Source: Longimicrobium sp.
GTDB taxonomy: Bacteria > Gemmatimonadota > Gemmatimonadetes > Longimicrobiales > Longimicrobiaceae
Length of the DNA: 32,397 nt
Reading direction: 5' to 3'
Assembly (NCBI RefSeq): GCF_035474595.1
Contig: NZ_DATIND010000058.1
Location: 1-32,397, forward strand
This document shows positions 12,635-27,289 of this stretch, in pieces. Under the pieces are notes generated by a model. That model saw nothing but the letters and a program-made list of their open reading frames with translations, had not been told where the DNA came from and did no database searches. How positions within the stretch are numbered: the stretch's first letter is position 1; each line of letters starts with the position of its first letter. The translations under genes and the position numbers were made by a program.

Positions 12635-14008
12635 TCAATCGGGCCGGCCAGTCGCGTTCCGCGGGGGAGACACCTTTTCGGCGGAGCTCGCTTTCAGCCG
12701 GGTGGGCAGGTCTTCAGCCGCCGTGAAGATGAACGCCTTGCCCGCCTTCCGCTTGTCGAGCAGATGCCGCGCGGTGAGGTCGAGAAGGTCCGTTCGCGCG
12801 GTTCCGGTCGAGATCCGATGGCTCGTCTGATGGGATTGCACAGTGTACGAGCGGCCGGGATGTTTCAACGCGTGGCCCAACAGCGCAAGCTGCCGGTGAT
12901 TGAGATCGGCTGACCGCTTCAAGAGCGCCTGCACTTCGCGCAGCTCGGCCATCTTCTTACGGAGGTAGGCCTTGAGATCTTCGATCGCGCGGTCGATCAC
13001 GCTCAGCTGGTACAGGACGAAGTAGGTCAGATCGTTGTCGTCGGTCTCCGTGAAGAGGAACGCGCGCCCGTACTGTCCGGGGGCTTTCTTGAGGATGCGA
13101 GAAATCGAGATGTACTCGGCCAGCCAGTAGCGATCGGCCAGCATGGACCAGTAGAAGAGCGCGCGTGCGGTTCTCCCGTTGCCGTCGACGAAAGGGTGGT
13201 CGAACGCCAGCCAGAAATGCAGCAGGATCGCCCGCACTACGGGATACATGAAGGCACCGTCGGTGCCTTTCGAGTTCGCGAACTCGCACATCGCCGCCAT
13301 TCGATCCGGAAGCTCGCCCGCCGGGGGAGGGACGTGAAGCGTGTTCCCGTACGGGTCGCTCACGACGATGTCGTCTTCATCCGTACGGAACTCGCCTGCG
13401 CTCTTCCCGTCATCCAGGGTCCCATCGGTCACGATCCGGTGCAGTTCGAACACCAGCGCAGGGGTCAGAGGGTTCGCGCGGTTCTCCTGGACGAATCGCA
13501 TGGCGGCGAAATTGTTCAGAATCATGCGTTCGCTGCGGTCGATCGGCCGCCGGCCCGAGCGAATCATGTCCCGGGCGACTTCGGCGGTCGTCGACGCGCC
13601 TTCCAGCTGGCTCGACGTAATCGACTCCTCGATCAGCGAATTGACGATATAGCGATCTCTCGTTCCCGGATTCGTCACTTCCTCGGCGAGTTGAATGCCC
13701 CCGCTCGCGTTCTGATCGATGATGTGCAGAAGCCGGAGCACCGAATCGGGCAGCATGTACTTGAACGGCCGCCCGGCCTTGTCTCGCAACGGGATCGGCT
13801 TCAGGGCGATGCTTCTGGCCAGCTTGACACCGAACCACCATTCTTCGAGGGAAAGATTCGAGGGTGGCTGCCGGTGCCGCAGCTCGTCCCAGTGCAGGTA
13901 CTTGCCGTCCGGCGCCGGTCCCACCCCCATGATCTCGACCGCTTTCCCGCCAAGCTGGACGGATTTGGCCAGGTCGGCCACACCTGGTGCGAAAATCGGT
14001 ATTTTCAT
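12635..14008 (-). CDS. Fic family protein (AMPylase) with N-terminal self-inhibitory motif
   Basis: A 457-residue Fic protein. The catalytic motif HPFVDGNGRTAR begins at His271. The inhibitory helix motif TSSQLEG (residues 131-137) lies N-terminal to it, which defines a class II Fic: the Glu blocks ATP until relieved. Residues about 390-455 look like a winged helix, as in many Fic proteins of this group. Fic enzymes transfer AMP from ATP to target hydroxyls; the target is unknown. GC is visibly lower than in neighbours (13621-13680 is 50% by count), and the upstream gap holds AT-rich sequence, suggesting transfer. AGGA lies about 8 nt before the ATG. Confidence 0.93.
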   Translation of the reverse strand: MKIPIFAPGVADLAKSVQLGGKAVEIMGVGPAPDGKYLHWDELRHRQPPSNLSLEEWWFGVKLARSIALKPIPLRDKAGRPFKYMLPDSVLRLLHIIDQNASGGIQLAEEVTNPGTRDRYIVNSLIEESITSSQLEGASTTAEVARDMIRSGRRPIDRSERMILNNFAAMRFVQENRANPLTPALVFELHRIVTDGTLDDGKSAGEFRTDEDDIVVSDPYGNTLHVPPPAGELPDRMAAMCEFANSKGTDGAFMYPVVRAILLHFWLAFDHPFVDGNGRTARALFYWSMLADRYWLAEYISISRILKKAPGQYGRAFLFTETDDNDLTYFVLYQLSVIDRAIEDLKAYLRKKMAELREVQALLKRSADLNHRQLALLGHALKHPGRSYTVQSHQTSHRISTGTARTDLLDLTARHLLDKRKAGKAFIFTAAEDLPTRLKASSAEKVSPPRNATGRPD

Positions 14009-23374: not shown

Positions 23375-23423
23375 CCTGCACGCCGAATCTTCTCCCGGCG
23401 CGGGATCGTAATTACGGTTGTGG

Positions 23424-25256
23424 ATGTGTGACCGTATCGATGCCGCGCCGGATCTTGTGAATACGCCGATTCTCTTGCCTTCTCCCGACATCTCCCAGCC
23501 TCATCACGGCGTTCCGCACTCGCGCACCGGGGCGCTCGTGTTCCGCGCGAAGGCGGCGGGGCTCCGCCTCCGGCGCACGGCGGGCGACCTGCTGCGCGGC
23601 CCGCGGCGGCATCCGCGCGCCGCCGCGCCGTGCGACGCGCCGGTGCTGGCCGAGTCCGCGACGCCGCTGTGGACAAATGCCGGGCCGGGCGAGCTCGCGC
23701 TGGTCGCGGGGAAGGTGCACAACCTCCGGCTGGCGGCGCGCCGCATCGACGGGGTGGAGCTCCCCGCGGGCGCGGTGTTCGGCTTCTGGGCGCAGGTCGG
23801 CCGGGCGTCGCGGCTGCGCGGGTTCGTGGCGGGGCGCGAGCTGCGCGAGGGGTGCCTGATTCCCTCGGTGGGCGGCGGGCTCTGCCAGCTTTCGAGCGCG
23901 CTGTACGACGCCGCGCTGCGGGCCGGCTGCGAGATCGTGGAGCGGCACGCGCACACCCGCGTGGTCCCCGGCTCGGCGGCGGAGCTGGGGCGCGACGCCA
24001 CCGTCTTCTGGAACTACGTGGACCTGCGCTTCCGCGCGCCGCGGCCGCTGCGCATCGAGGCGCGGATGGACGACCGCACGCTCACGGTGCGCCTGCGCGG
24101 CCCGCGCGCGGCCGAACCCGTGCGCTCGCCGGACGCGCCCTTGCGCGTGCTGCGGGTGCTGGGCGCTCCGCCGCGGAGCTGTCCGAGCTGCGGCGAGGCC
24201 GCGTGCTTCCGCCATCGCCCCGTGCCGCTGGAGTTCGCCGGGCGCACGGCGCACCTGCTGGACGAATGGTCGCCGGAGATCGACGGCTACCTGGCGGGCA
24301 TCCGCCGCGACGGCGATGTGATGGGGATTCCGCTGGACGGCCGGCGGTTCCGCAAGCCGGCGTACGCGTGGACGACCGGCGGCGCAGCGCGCGTGCGGCA
24401 GAGCTGGCGCGTGGTGCTGGCGCGGTCGTGGCGCTCGCGGCGGCTGGCGGCGCAGGGCGCCGCGCGGCAGCGGGCGCTCCTCGACTCCGCGGCGGCGCTC
24501 GCGGAGAGCTACGCGCCGCTCCTCGGCTGGGACGTGACGCACGTGGTGGTCGCGCAGAACCTGCTGCCGTTCCTCTGGCGAAGCGGGCACCTGGGCGGCC
24601 GCACCTTCGACGTGCTGATGACCGCGCCGCCGATGGCCGAGCTGCACGCCCGGCTGGACGTCGCCGCCCGCCTGCACCCCGCGAGCCCCACGCTGGCCGA
24701 CTTCCGCGCCGACGAGGCGCTGCTGCACGACGAGGCCGAGGCGCTCGTCCACGCGCGGCGGATCGTGACGCCGCACCGGGATGTCGCCGCGCTCTTCCCC
24801 GGACGGGCCGAGGTGCTGGACTGGGCTCGCCCGGCACCAAAGCGCGTGCGACAGAACGCAGGGACGCGCCCGCGAATCGTCTTCCCCGGCCCCACCGCGG
24901 GGCGAAAGGGCGCATACGAGCTGCGCGAGGCGCTGGCGGGCATGGACGTGGAACTGGTGGCGATGGGATCGATGCTGGAAGGCGCCGGCTTCTGGGACGG
25001 GATTCGCCTCGCGCCGGCGGAGGCGCAGTGGCTCGACGGCGCGGACCTCGTCGTCCTCCCCGCGTTCGTGGAGAACCGGCCGCGCAGGCTGCTGCAGGCG
25101 CTCGCGAGCGGCGTCCCCGTGATCGCCACGCCCGCGTGCGGCCTGGGAGCGGAAGACGGCCTCACGCTCGTCCCCGCGGGCGATGCAGGCGCCTTGCGAG
25201 AAGCAATCGTCGATGTGCTCGCCGCCCGATCATCCAACTTCGTTCAAATCGGCTGA
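23424..25256 (+). CDS. VanW-domain protein fused to a GT-B-like glycosyltransferase domain
   Basis: A 610-residue two-domain protein. Residues about 95-205 are a VanW domain (YoaR-type), with GAVFGFWAQVGRAS, GGGLCQLSSALYDAAL and HAHTRVVPGS. A short Cys cluster follows, CPSC...C..H (residues 253-264), resembling a small zinc ribbon. From about residue 280 to the end lies a glycosyltransferase-like region, with PRIVFPGPTAGRKG and the nucleotide-sugar side motif ENRPRRLLQALASGVPVIATP. No signal peptide is evident. VanW function is unknown (named from vancomycin-resistance clusters). The fusion suggests envelope glycan work. ATG 23424 is preferred to TTG 23418. Confidence 0.8.
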   Translation: MCDRIDAAPDLVNTPILLPSPDISQPHHGVPHSRTGALVFRAKAAGLRLRRTAGDLLRGPRRHPRAAAPCDAPVLAESATPLWTNAGPGELALVAGKVHNLRLAARRIDGVELPAGAVFGFWAQVGRASRLRGFVAGRELREGCLIPSVGGGLCQLSSALYDAALRAGCEIVERHAHTRVVPGSAAELGRDATVFWNYVDLRFRAPRPLRIEARMDDRTLTVRLRGPRAAEPVRSPDAPLRVLRVLGAPPRSCPSCGEAACFRHRPVPLEFAGRTAHLLDEWSPEIDGYLAGIRRDGDVMGIPLDGRRFRKPAYAWTTGGAARVRQSWRVVLARSWRSRRLAAQGAARQRALLDSAAALAESYAPLLGWDVTHVVVAQNLLPFLWRSGHLGGRTFDVLMTAPPMAELHARLDVAARLHPASPTLADFRADEALLHDEAEALVHARRIVTPHRDVAALFPGRAEVLDWARPAPKRVRQNAGTRPRIVFPGPTAGRKGAYELREALAGMDVELVAMGSMLEGAGFWDGIRLAPAEAQWLDGADLVVLPAFVENRPRRLLQALASGVPVIATPACGLGAEDGLTLVPAGDAGALREAIVDVLAARSSNFVQIG

Positions 25257-25264
25257 AAAACTGA

Positions 25265-25295
25265 GCGCCGGCGGCTGATCATCAGCCGCCGGCGC
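25265..25295. terminator. Bidirectional-type terminator hairpin
   Basis: A perfect 14-bp stem, GCGCCGGCGGCTGA/TCAGCCGCCGGCGC, with a 3-nt loop. It lies between the VanW fusion (ending at 25256, +) and the MNIO partner gene (ending at 25334, -). An A-run (GCTGAAAAACTGA) on the left could give U's for the minus strand. Confidence 0.75.
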
Positions 25296-25333
25296 CTGTC
25301 GCCTTGAATCCACCATCTTCCAGTCTCTCCCAT

Positions 25334-26140
25334 TCAGCGCGCGGCGAGGAGTTCTCCGGCCGCGCGCCCGTTCGCGTCCGTCTCGGCGTCTGGACCGACG
25401 CGCACCAGCAGCCCCGCCGCGGCCAACTCCTCCCGCTCGTGCGCGACTGGATCTTCCCCCGCGGCAGCCGCGATCATCGCGCGGGCGAGGCGGGCGTCCA
25501 GCGGGCGCTCGTGGTACGCGCCGTCGCGGCGGTCGAGGAGGAGATGGTACTCGCCCTCGGGGACGTCGTCGAACGGAGGTTTGCGCTTCGCGGCGAGATG
25601 CGGGAGCAGCACCGCAGGATCGTGCGCGAACGCGGCGACGCGGACGAGCGGATGCGGCGCGAACGGAGTTTCCGCATCGCCCGTCTCCACCTGCTGTTCG
25701 AGGAGGCCCGGCTGCGGCGCGGCGGCCAGTTCGTAGCGCATCATCTCGAAATCCACCACCTCGCGCAGGTACGGCGACGCGAGGCGGCCGCTGGCGACAG
25801 CGGCGCGGATGAAGCCGGCGAAGCGCTCGGCCTCGCGGCGCATGTTGCGGTCGGGGGGATGCGCCGCCCAGAACTCGTCGGCCACGGCGCGCGCCTCGCC
25901 GCCCAGCAGGTGCACGGTGCCGGGGAGGATGGCCACCAGCGTGGTGATGCGGTTGTAGCGGTAGAGCGAGCAGTTCACTCGCATCCCGCGCTGCCCCGCG
26001 GCCGCGGCCAGGCGCCGCCGCTCGAGCGGCGTCAGCTCGTAACCGGCCAGCGCCGCGTCGGGGTCCGCCGCCACGCGCGCGCAGAAGGCGTGCGACGCCG
26101 TCATGTCGGCCAAGGCCAGCTGGAACGCGAGGAGCGACAT
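25334..26140 (-). CDS. MNIO partner protein (DUF2063-like, RiPP recognition type)
   Basis: A 268-residue protein whose ATG overlaps the stop of the MNIO gene by one base (TGATG), so the two are coupled. Residues about 1-55 form a helical LigA/Nif11-like stretch (ADPDAALAGYELTPLERRRLAA). Residues about 55-145 match the DUF2063 pattern: SLYRYNRITTLVAILPGTVHLLGG, then an AHPPDRNMRREAERFAGF turn and SPYLREVVDFEMMRYEL. The C-terminus (LARAMIAAAAGE, ELAAAGLLVRVG) looks like the winged helix of such partners. In MbnC/TglI/BufC-type systems the partner binds the precursor leader and presents it to the oxidase; I infer that role here. Confidence 0.78.
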   Translation of the reverse strand: MSLLAFQLALADMTASHAFCARVAADPDAALAGYELTPLERRRLAAAAGQRGMRVNCSLYRYNRITTLVAILPGTVHLLGGEARAVADEFWAAHPPDRNMRREAERFAGFIRAAVASGRLASPYLREVVDFEMMRYELAAAPQPGLLEQQVETGDAETPFAPHPLVRVAAFAHDPAVLLPHLAAKRKPPFDDVPEGEYHLLLDRRDGAYHERPLDARLARAMIAAAAGEDPVAHEREELAAAGLLVRVGPDAETDANGRAAGELLAAR

Positions 26141-27069
26141 CAGCTTGCGCGGTGCTGGTTCCAGACCTCGCGGGCGGTGCGCAGCTCGCGCAGCACTCCC
26201 TCGGCGCCCATCATCGGGAACCATCCCTCGTGGAACTCGAAGGTGATGGCGCACAGGTTGGGACAGGCCGCGACCACTTCCGGCAGCAGCTCCCACACGG
26301 CCCGCGCCACCGGCCCCGCGTGCGAGTCGGTGTACAGCCCCTCCATCTCGCTCCCGCCCGCGATGTGCAACTCCACCACCGGCTCCAGGTCCAGCGCGAA
26401 GATGAAGGCGCGCGGGTCGAAGCCGTGGTTGGTGGCGTTCACCACCACGTTGTGCACGTCCAGCAGAAGCCCGCACCCGGTGCGCGCGGCCAGCGCGTTC
26501 AGGAACTCGGGCTCCGTCATCTCCTGCTCGGGGAGATCGACGTAGTACACGTTGTTCTCCAGCAGGAAGGGCACGGGGATGCGCGCCTGCACCTGCTCCA
26601 CCCGCTCCACCATCATCTCCAGCACCTCGCGGTCGTACGGCACCGCCAGCGCCATGCTGGCCGACAGTTCGGTGTGCGCGTCCACGCCGGGAAGGCGGAT
26701 GAAGGAGAGATGGTCGCTGTGCCACGGCATGCGGTAGCGCTCCTGCCACCGCGCGACCTGCTCCACGTGGCCCGTATCGAGCGGGTCCGCGCTCCCGATG
26801 GACAGCCCCACGCTGTGCCCGACGATCGTCAGCCGTTCGGCCGCGCCGTTGAGGATGCGCACCTGCTCCTCGCTCTCCACGAACCGCGCCGGTGCCGCCG
26901 CGCCTTCGTCCGACCATGCGCGGTCGGGGATGATGGCCAGGTAGTCCAGCTCGGCCGCGTGCTCCCGCACGAACGCCTGCAGCGACGGGTTGTACAGCAC
27001 GCCCACGCCCAGCCGGGGAAGCCCGGCCAGGCGCGCGGCGGACGGGAGATGGAGTTCGGAAACGCTCAT
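26140..27069 (-). CDS. DUF692 multinuclear non-heme iron oxidase (MNIO, MbnB/BufB-like)
   Basis: A 309-residue TIM-barrel-type protein of DUF692. Likely metal ligands in order: His85 (VGHSVGLSIGS), His117/His120 (HSDHLSF), Glu171-Asn172 (FLLENNVYY), Asp204 and Asn207 (LLLDVHNVVVNATNHG), His235 (ELHIAGG), Asp248/His250 (DSHAGPV) and Glu278 (TFEFHEGW). Compared with my memory of common MNIOs, IAGG replaces LAGH and DSHAG replaces DTHDH, so this may be a divergent branch. MNIOs oxidise cysteines in precursor peptides to oxazolone/thioamide, thiooxazole or related groups. A 48-residue Cys-containing peptide is encoded just upstream. Confidence 0.9.
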   Translation of the reverse strand: MSVSELHLPSAARLAGLPRLGVGVLYNPSLQAFVREHAAELDYLAIIPDRAWSDEGAAAPARFVESEEQVRILNGAAERLTIVGHSVGLSIGSADPLDTGHVEQVARWQERYRMPWHSDHLSFIRLPGVDAHTELSASMALAVPYDREVLEMMVERVEQVQARIPVPFLLENNVYYVDLPEQEMTEPEFLNALAARTGCGLLLDVHNVVVNATNHGFDPRAFIFALDLEPVVELHIAGGSEMEGLYTDSHAGPVARAVWELLPEVVAACPNLCAITFEFHEGWFPMMGAEGVLRELRTAREVWNQHRAS

Positions 27070-27101
27070 CGCACTCTACTGCGCGGGTGATGCGGGAAGT
27101 A

Positions 27102-27134
27102 CCGCTTCCGGGCGGGCGAACCGCCCGGAAGCGG
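27102..27134 (-). terminator. Attenuator hairpin between precursor and MNIO genes
   Basis: A perfect 14-bp stem, CCGCTTCCGGGCGG/CCGCCCGGAAGCGG, with a 5-nt loop (GCGAA). It lies 8 nt beyond the precursor stop and 32 nt before the MNIO start. It has no T-run, so it could terminate partially or protect the short upstream mRNA. Either way the precursor would be made in excess of its enzyme. Confidence 0.7.
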
Positions 27135-27142
27135 CGGCCGGG

Positions 27143-27289
27143 TCAGCCCTCGGCCGCGGGAACCGCGGTGATCTCCAGGATCGGATCGTTCGGGTCCGTC
27201 GGGCCGGTGCCGGACAGGCAGGCCGGGCAGTACGTCGGCGGATACGGCTCCTTGGTGATGGGATAGGTCGGCTCGGTGGTCGTGGCCAT
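27143..27289 (-). CDS. Candidate RiPP precursor peptide, 48 residues, with a CxxC core
   Basis: A tiny ORF on the minus strand, with GGAG 6 nt before its ATG. The peptide is Thr/Pro/Tyr-rich. It starts MATTTEPTYP, has a single Cys pair in TYCPACLSGTG near residues 20-30, then an acidic tail ending in AVPAAEG. It has no signal peptide and no other Cys. It directly precedes the MNIO and partner genes. MNIO substrates are Cys-containing peptides, so I infer that the CPAC motif is the modification site. It does not resemble methanobactin, TglA or bufferin precursors as I remember them. Confidence 0.75.
   Translation of the reverse strand: MATTTEPTYPITKEPYPPTYCPACLSGTGPTDPNDPILEITAVPAAEG

Follow-up and report, generated by a model that had tools for sequence, protein, structure and literature searches.

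A cassette of three genes in the genome of a Longimicrobium species very probably represents a peptide-modification pathway, because the same trio recurs in three phyla with peptides that are alike only in a C-x-x-C-x-S-G (CxxCxSG) core. On the strength of sequence comparisons and structure models, we consider it highly probable that the trio is a RiPP cassette in which an MNIO enzyme and its partner protein would modify the peptide encoded beside them. The fuller statement, in which the modification would also be a single joint four-electron oxidation of the CxxC motif, is given a little under an even chance.

The window (the whole stretch of DNA analysed, 32,397 nucleotides) comes from a genome of 6.57 Mb in 163 contigs (G000) and carries the cassette on its minus strand within 25334-27289, in the order 48-codon peptide, MNIO, DUF2063-like partner. 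The original prediction of a small peptide ORF with one Cys pair, an MNIO and a coupled partner gene is borne out: all three are real and stand in a row on the same strand, the partner ATG sharing one base with the MNIO stop. The features of the locus are as follows.

27143..27289 (read 27289 to 27143), minus strand: precursor peptide gene; 48 aa, without signal peptide, core CPACLSG (CxxCxSG) at residues 21-27.
27209..27229, minus strand: core codons C-P-A-C-L-S-G; position calculated, conservation taken from the precursor alignment.
27098..27135 (boundaries approximate), minus strand: G+C-rich hairpin in the gap between precursor and MNIO genes; uninterrupted 15-bp stem, -45 kcal/mol, z -4.9.
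26140..27069 (read 27069 to 26140), minus strand: MNIO (DUF692) enzyme gene; 309 aa, PF05114 E 9.6e-63.
25334..26140 (read 26140 to 25334), minus strand: partner gene; 268 aa, helical DUF2063-like domain (1-151) and RRE-like winged helix (about 158-250).
25264..25296 (boundaries approximate), no strand: near-perfect palindrome, 15-bp stem, z -4.3, between the cassette and a convergent VanW/glycosyltransferase gene.

The palindrome is the probable end of the transcription unit; since a clear T tract is missing, we only infer its role as a terminator. The convergent gene is a single ORF with a VanW domain and a glycosyltransferase domain (23418-25256, plus strand), and elsewhere in the window 12635-14008 on the minus strand encodes a Fic/DOC family protein.

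The window precursor reads MATTTEPTYPITKEPYPPTYCPACLSGTGPTDPNDPILEITAVPAAEG (48 aa), and the letters ahead of its ATG are CACGGAGCACCTC. Its core is internal, followed by 21 residues. By inspection it has only two Cys and no hydrophobic N terminus, and the earlier description of it as lacking the signal peptide and Cys-rich repeats of bufferins is correct. Searches of NCBIfam and Pfam returned no family match for the peptide. When the precursor was aligned with 17 homologues, the only invariant residues among the 18 sequences were Met1, both Cys, the Ser and the Gly; the Pro of the core is not conserved among clade precursors. The gene is under purifying selection, with rough dN/dS values of 0.09-0.72 over eight pairs. 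The constraint is tightest for L038/G657 (0.09) and looser within Gemmatimonadota (0.55-0.72); all of these are crude counts from short, partly gapped alignments. An artefactual or chance ORF is ruled out as the precursor by this selection, by conservation and by the chance estimate given below. At one locus (L032:4076-4418) two tandem precursor genes with little in common beyond CxxCxSG precede a single MNIO gene.

Clade MNIOs are here the MNIOs found that score above about 300 bits on the clade HMM, plus the divergent L059; the boundary is set by definition because the HMM was built from clade members. At every clade locus (20 loci plus the divergent one), in genomes that were sampled and not exhaustively covered, a short peptide with C-x-x-C-x-S-G is encoded upstream of the MNIO. 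These loci span Gemmatimonadota, Acidobacteriota and Pseudomonadota, the MNIO identity falls to about 40%, and CxxCxSG is the sole stretch common to the precursors across the three phyla. Within the host family the MNIO occurs in five of 21 genomes; the MNIOs of the four relatives are 65-87% identical to that of the window, and each MNIO has its upstream CxxCxSG peptide. Wider searches, by contig scan and at phylum, class and order level, added loci from Holophagales, Acidobacteriaceae, Burkholderiales (Hydrogenophaga) and Luteimonas, as well as other Acidobacteriota and further members of the order of Luteimonas. Upstream of lower-scoring MNIOs of other types the motif was found at none of 31 scored loci, of which L041 and L046 test little, as their upstream sequence extends for just a few dozen bases. 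The one C..C.SG string encountered beside such an enzyme, at L080 in the Acidobacteriota set, falls in the tail, rich in Gly and Cys, of a long protein encoded upstream and is regarded as coincidental. By chance, C..C.SG would turn up 0.002-0.004 times in 300 nt of upstream sequence. The co-occurrence of peptide and enzyme, which the original prediction had put forward as its test, thus held at all clade loci, both Cys included.

The converse search gave the same picture. In the host family, strong matches to the window peptide arose only in MNIO genomes (G000, G011 and G001); a match in G017 was weak but at the right place, and other weak matches look like chance. A Hydrogenophaga-type peptide was present in two of 349 Burkholderiales genomes, both with an adjacent MNIO. 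Plasmid-borne copies were rejected, the best match having 33% identity and no core motif. Around the edges of the clade, an MNIO of intermediate score (L079) lies downstream of an 80-aa precursor whose motif is CEACGR, not CxxCxSG, and which may represent a sister class of precursors. Many other Acidobacteriota MNIOs (L084-L105) lie behind signal-peptide precursors with repeats of the CKGKGGC/CAGKNSCKG type, and at L096 the precursor has many tandem ASCKGEK units.

CxxC by itself is widespread among zinc, haem and thioredoxin-like sites. The peptide might for that reason serve in metal or redox binding without being modified, or its small ORF might have no link to the MNIO, which in either case would act on something else, but strict co-occurrence, adjacency and purifying selection, an RRE-bearing partner, and the tandem L032 precursors that share little but the core make such a reading quite improbable.

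The gap between precursor and MNIO genes holds a further recurrent element. Among seven relatives with a long precursor-MNIO gap, six have a stem of 12-16 bp there, which exceeds those of almost all random segments drawn from these loci. In the window and in L055-L058, L032 and L063 the position of the hairpin is conserved while its sequence differs, the elements being too diverged to align for covariation. The hairpin is a possible mRNA processing or attenuation element and may set the peptide-to-enzyme ratio.

The MNIO of the window scores 212.3 bits against PF05114 (gathering threshold 25), and its AF2 model (pLDDT 87) is a TIM barrel that superimposes on TglH (8hi7_B) with Z 33.0 and an rmsd of 2.5 over 284 residues; 3bww and MbnB follow at Z about 27. 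The nine iron ligands of TglH (PMC10880893) map one to one onto H85, H120, E171, D204, N207, H235, D248, H250 and E278, the predicted iron ligands of the window enzyme. All nine are invariant in the 21 rows of the clade alignment, in which L033 and L076 represent the same gene and L039, which nearly duplicates L035, does not appear. The original prediction that most metal ligands are intact was right as to their presence and understated their number. The IAGG and DSHAG motifs, which it described as changed, are not degraded: AGG also occurs in TglH, and in D-S/A-H both the D and the H bind iron.

Outside the ligand set, the clade departs from both described active sites. An Asp near the Glu ligand has been proposed as catalytic in MbnB, and Asn73 is essential in TglH (PMC10880893). 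The former, located two residues past the last Glu ligand, is present in 38 of 38 other MNIOs that keep that Glu, versus at most one of the 21 clade rows, and the window enzyme does not have it, which argues against MbnB-like chemistry. The TglH Asn73 is also absent, its place being taken by Val or Ile, and residues specific to the clade include W52, D146 and V174.

This pattern bears on two readings of the chemistry. TglH is the closest solved enzyme, TglI is among the closest partner structures, and the D-x-H-N and A-G-G motifs are common to TglH and the clade, so that a TglH-like excision of the beta carbon of Cys, of the pearlin type, might be envisaged. We judge it highly improbable, for the substrate Cys of TglH is C-terminal and added, both Cys are internal in all clade precursors, the essential Asn73 is missing and no additional conserved gene accompanies the trio. 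A reaction new to MNIOs, in which for example Ser-Gly would be oxidised or the backbone cut there while the Cys pair binds iron or aids recognition, would suit an active site with neither the MbnB Asp nor Asn73 and with W52, D146 and V174 in their clade-specific state. It would also suit the Ser and Gly being as invariant as both Cys, and Asp, Asn and Phe are already known as residues on which MNIOs can act (Antoine et al. 2025, PMC12452194). Nevertheless, where the precursor contains Cys, most MNIOs modify that residue, and the invariant Ser-Gly may merely shape a turn entering the active site; we place this reading among the unlikely ones.

By sequence profile, the enzyme stands apart from all curated families. 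Against the NCBIfam equivalogs it scored 178.7 bits for BufB (cut-off 310), 149.5 for HvfB (360), 54.3 for ChrH (600) and 31.3 for MbnB (325), and the clade MNIOs matched no further NCBIfam model. Membership of the window MNIO in the bufferin, ChrH, ApyH, HvfB or MbnB families was rejected, every curated cut-off being missed. In a tree made without ChrH and ApyH sequences, 16 of 17 CxxCxSG MNIO loci group together (92% ultrafast bootstrap, 91% SH-aLRT); the 17th, L059, the most divergent of them, forms a long branch of uncertain place outside the rest. The separate branch proposed originally is supported by this grouping and by scores far below all NCBIfam MNIO cut-offs. The closest profiles by bits, BufB and then HvfB, point towards an alternative in which one or both Cys would independently be turned into 5-thiooxazole or oxazolone/thioamide, as in bufferins, oxazolins and methanobactins, and the product would be a small peptide that binds copper. 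Cys is the target of most characterised MNIOs, and two Cys three residues apart could form a bidentate metal site. The failure to reach any equivalog cut-off, the near absence from the clade of an Asp found in all 38 comparable MNIOs, and an invariant Ser-Gly past CxxCx that is foreign to the bufferin-like precursors of this sample weigh on the other side; we regard such modification as unlikely, if slightly less so than a reaction at Ser-Gly.

The partner protein matches DUF2063 with E 0.0019 and 18.9 bits, below the cut-off of 27.2. Antoine et al. 2025 reserve PME type 1 for partners that pass the Pfam DUF2063 cut-off, and by their definition this partner is PME type 2 (PMC12452194). Its AF2 model (pLDDT 86) has an all-helical N-terminal part and a winged-helix C-terminal part. 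A sequence profile of the partner found no homologue among solved structures, but a fold search did: Foldseek ranked TglI (8hi7_A) first (E 4.5e-6), and VIA-align gave Z 13.7 for NGO1945 (3dee), 13.5 for TglI and 4.7 for the TbiB1 RRE (5v1v) over residues 158-249. The partner gene follows the MNIO gene in the other 17 neighbourhoods examined, L033 being cut by the locus end. In L059:5167-6660 (Gemmatimonadota, G257) a partner-like domain (profile E about 1e-20) is fused to the MNIO in one polypeptide, adjoining a CKGCVSG precursor, and this natural fusion is independent evidence that the two work together. The RiPP-type trio proposed in the original prediction is supported. When the neighbourhoods were compared all against all, the trio alone was common to them; no protease, exporter or methyltransferase was conserved.

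For the proposed pathway, we infer that the RRE-like domain of the partner would bind the N-terminal part of the precursor and deliver the CxxCxSG core into the TIM barrel of the MNIO, where a two- or three-iron centre would oxidise it with O2. The likeliest reaction would be one four-electron oxidation that starts at the second Cys and involves both, leaving the CxxC cross-linked or heterocyclised and the peptide about 4 Da lighter. As no protease or exporter is conserved nearby, release and export would proceed via general machinery, or the product would stay in the cell. That the product serves in metal or redox handling is no more than a guess.

The closest precedent for this oxidation is chryseobasin. 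In ChrA, CPACGMG is converted to a macrocycle and an imidazolidinedione: the first Cys becomes joined through its thiol to the beta carbon of the second, and the carbonyl of the second Cys moves between the next two amide nitrogens (PMC10214503). Both Cys are needed, and DybH, a relative of ChrH, recognises the heptapeptide alone (PMC10214503, PMC12636315). In the clade both Cys are invariant, with the C-x-x-C-x-x-G spacing of ChrA, and ChrA and the window peptide share CPAC; the clade core also has the backbone atoms that the ChrA reaction needs. The outcome would resemble that of ChrH/DybH on CPACGMG, reached by another MNIO branch with a TglI-like partner. There are differences. The ChrA core is mostly C-terminal, whereas the window core is internal and has Leu-Ser for Gly-Met, so that it departs from the usually C-terminal CPxCGxG core of the ChrH subfamily; ChrH carries an additional C-terminal domain and lacks the RRE partner that the clade has. 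Because the enzyme falls outside the ChrH family, works beside an RRE partner and meets a Ser where ChrA has Met, our preference for the joint oxidation is guarded, and thiooxazole-type and unprecedented chemistry are kept as serious rivals.

Other characterised systems resemble the cassette in part. The order precursor, MNIO, DUF2063/RRE partner and the best NCBIfam bit score recall bufferins (BufABC), but bufferin precursors have a Sec signal peptide and several Cys, and the E-x-D motif is missing from the clade (at most one of 21 rows with the Asp). The methanobactin and oxazolin enzymes (MbnB, HvfB) are set apart by the missed equivalog scores and, in the window enzyme, by the lack of the Asp after the E ligand. 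TglHI of the 3-thiaglutamate pearlin (PDB 8hi7, 8hci) shares nine identical iron ligands, D-x-H-N, A-G-G and one of the two closest partner structures; it differs in the Asn73 of TglH and in the C-terminal Cys of TglA, added post-translationally, where the clade has an internal CxxC core.

The original proposal of a new RiPP system is not supported as it stood, since the locus is no isolated case. Antoine et al. 2025 list adjamnio-7, signal-less CxxC precursors beside MNIO cluster #7 with a representative in Novilysobacter, in little more than one main-text sentence and with no product given there (PMC12452194). The window likewise has a CxxC precursor without signal peptide beside an MNIO gene, and a locus of the same class lies in Luteimonas (L037, precursor GCRPCLSG), a relative of Novilysobacter; identity of the window class with adjamnio-7 is therefore likely, if unproven. 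Their main text does not contain the Ser-Gly of the core, the partner fold, the Gemmatimonadota and Acidobacteriota members, the fusion or the active-site signature. In literature searches, 'adjamnio' appeared in no other paper of the collection searched, and the core motif string and MNIO combined with Longimicrobi- gave no match. New here are the Ser-Gly-containing CxxCxSG core, its three-phylum spread, the hairpin between precursor and MNIO genes, the active-site signature, and a partner that resembles TglI, has an RRE-like domain and is naturally fused to the enzyme in L059.

MNIO branches have yielded a new reaction in nearly every case examined. Slightly more tentatively than the joint oxidation itself, we suggest that the CxxCxSG branch may perform an oxidation new to MNIOs, in an active site with neither of the described catalytic residues, and produce a new class of short modified peptide in three phyla. 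The cassette is compact and co-expressible, with three genes and a core of seven residues that comparison between three phyla has delimited, and about twenty natural MNIO variants carry active-site signatures that set the branch apart from the MbnB/bufferin-like and TglH types. The action of an MNIO on a CxxC core thereby becomes directly testable and comparable with the ChrH reaction.
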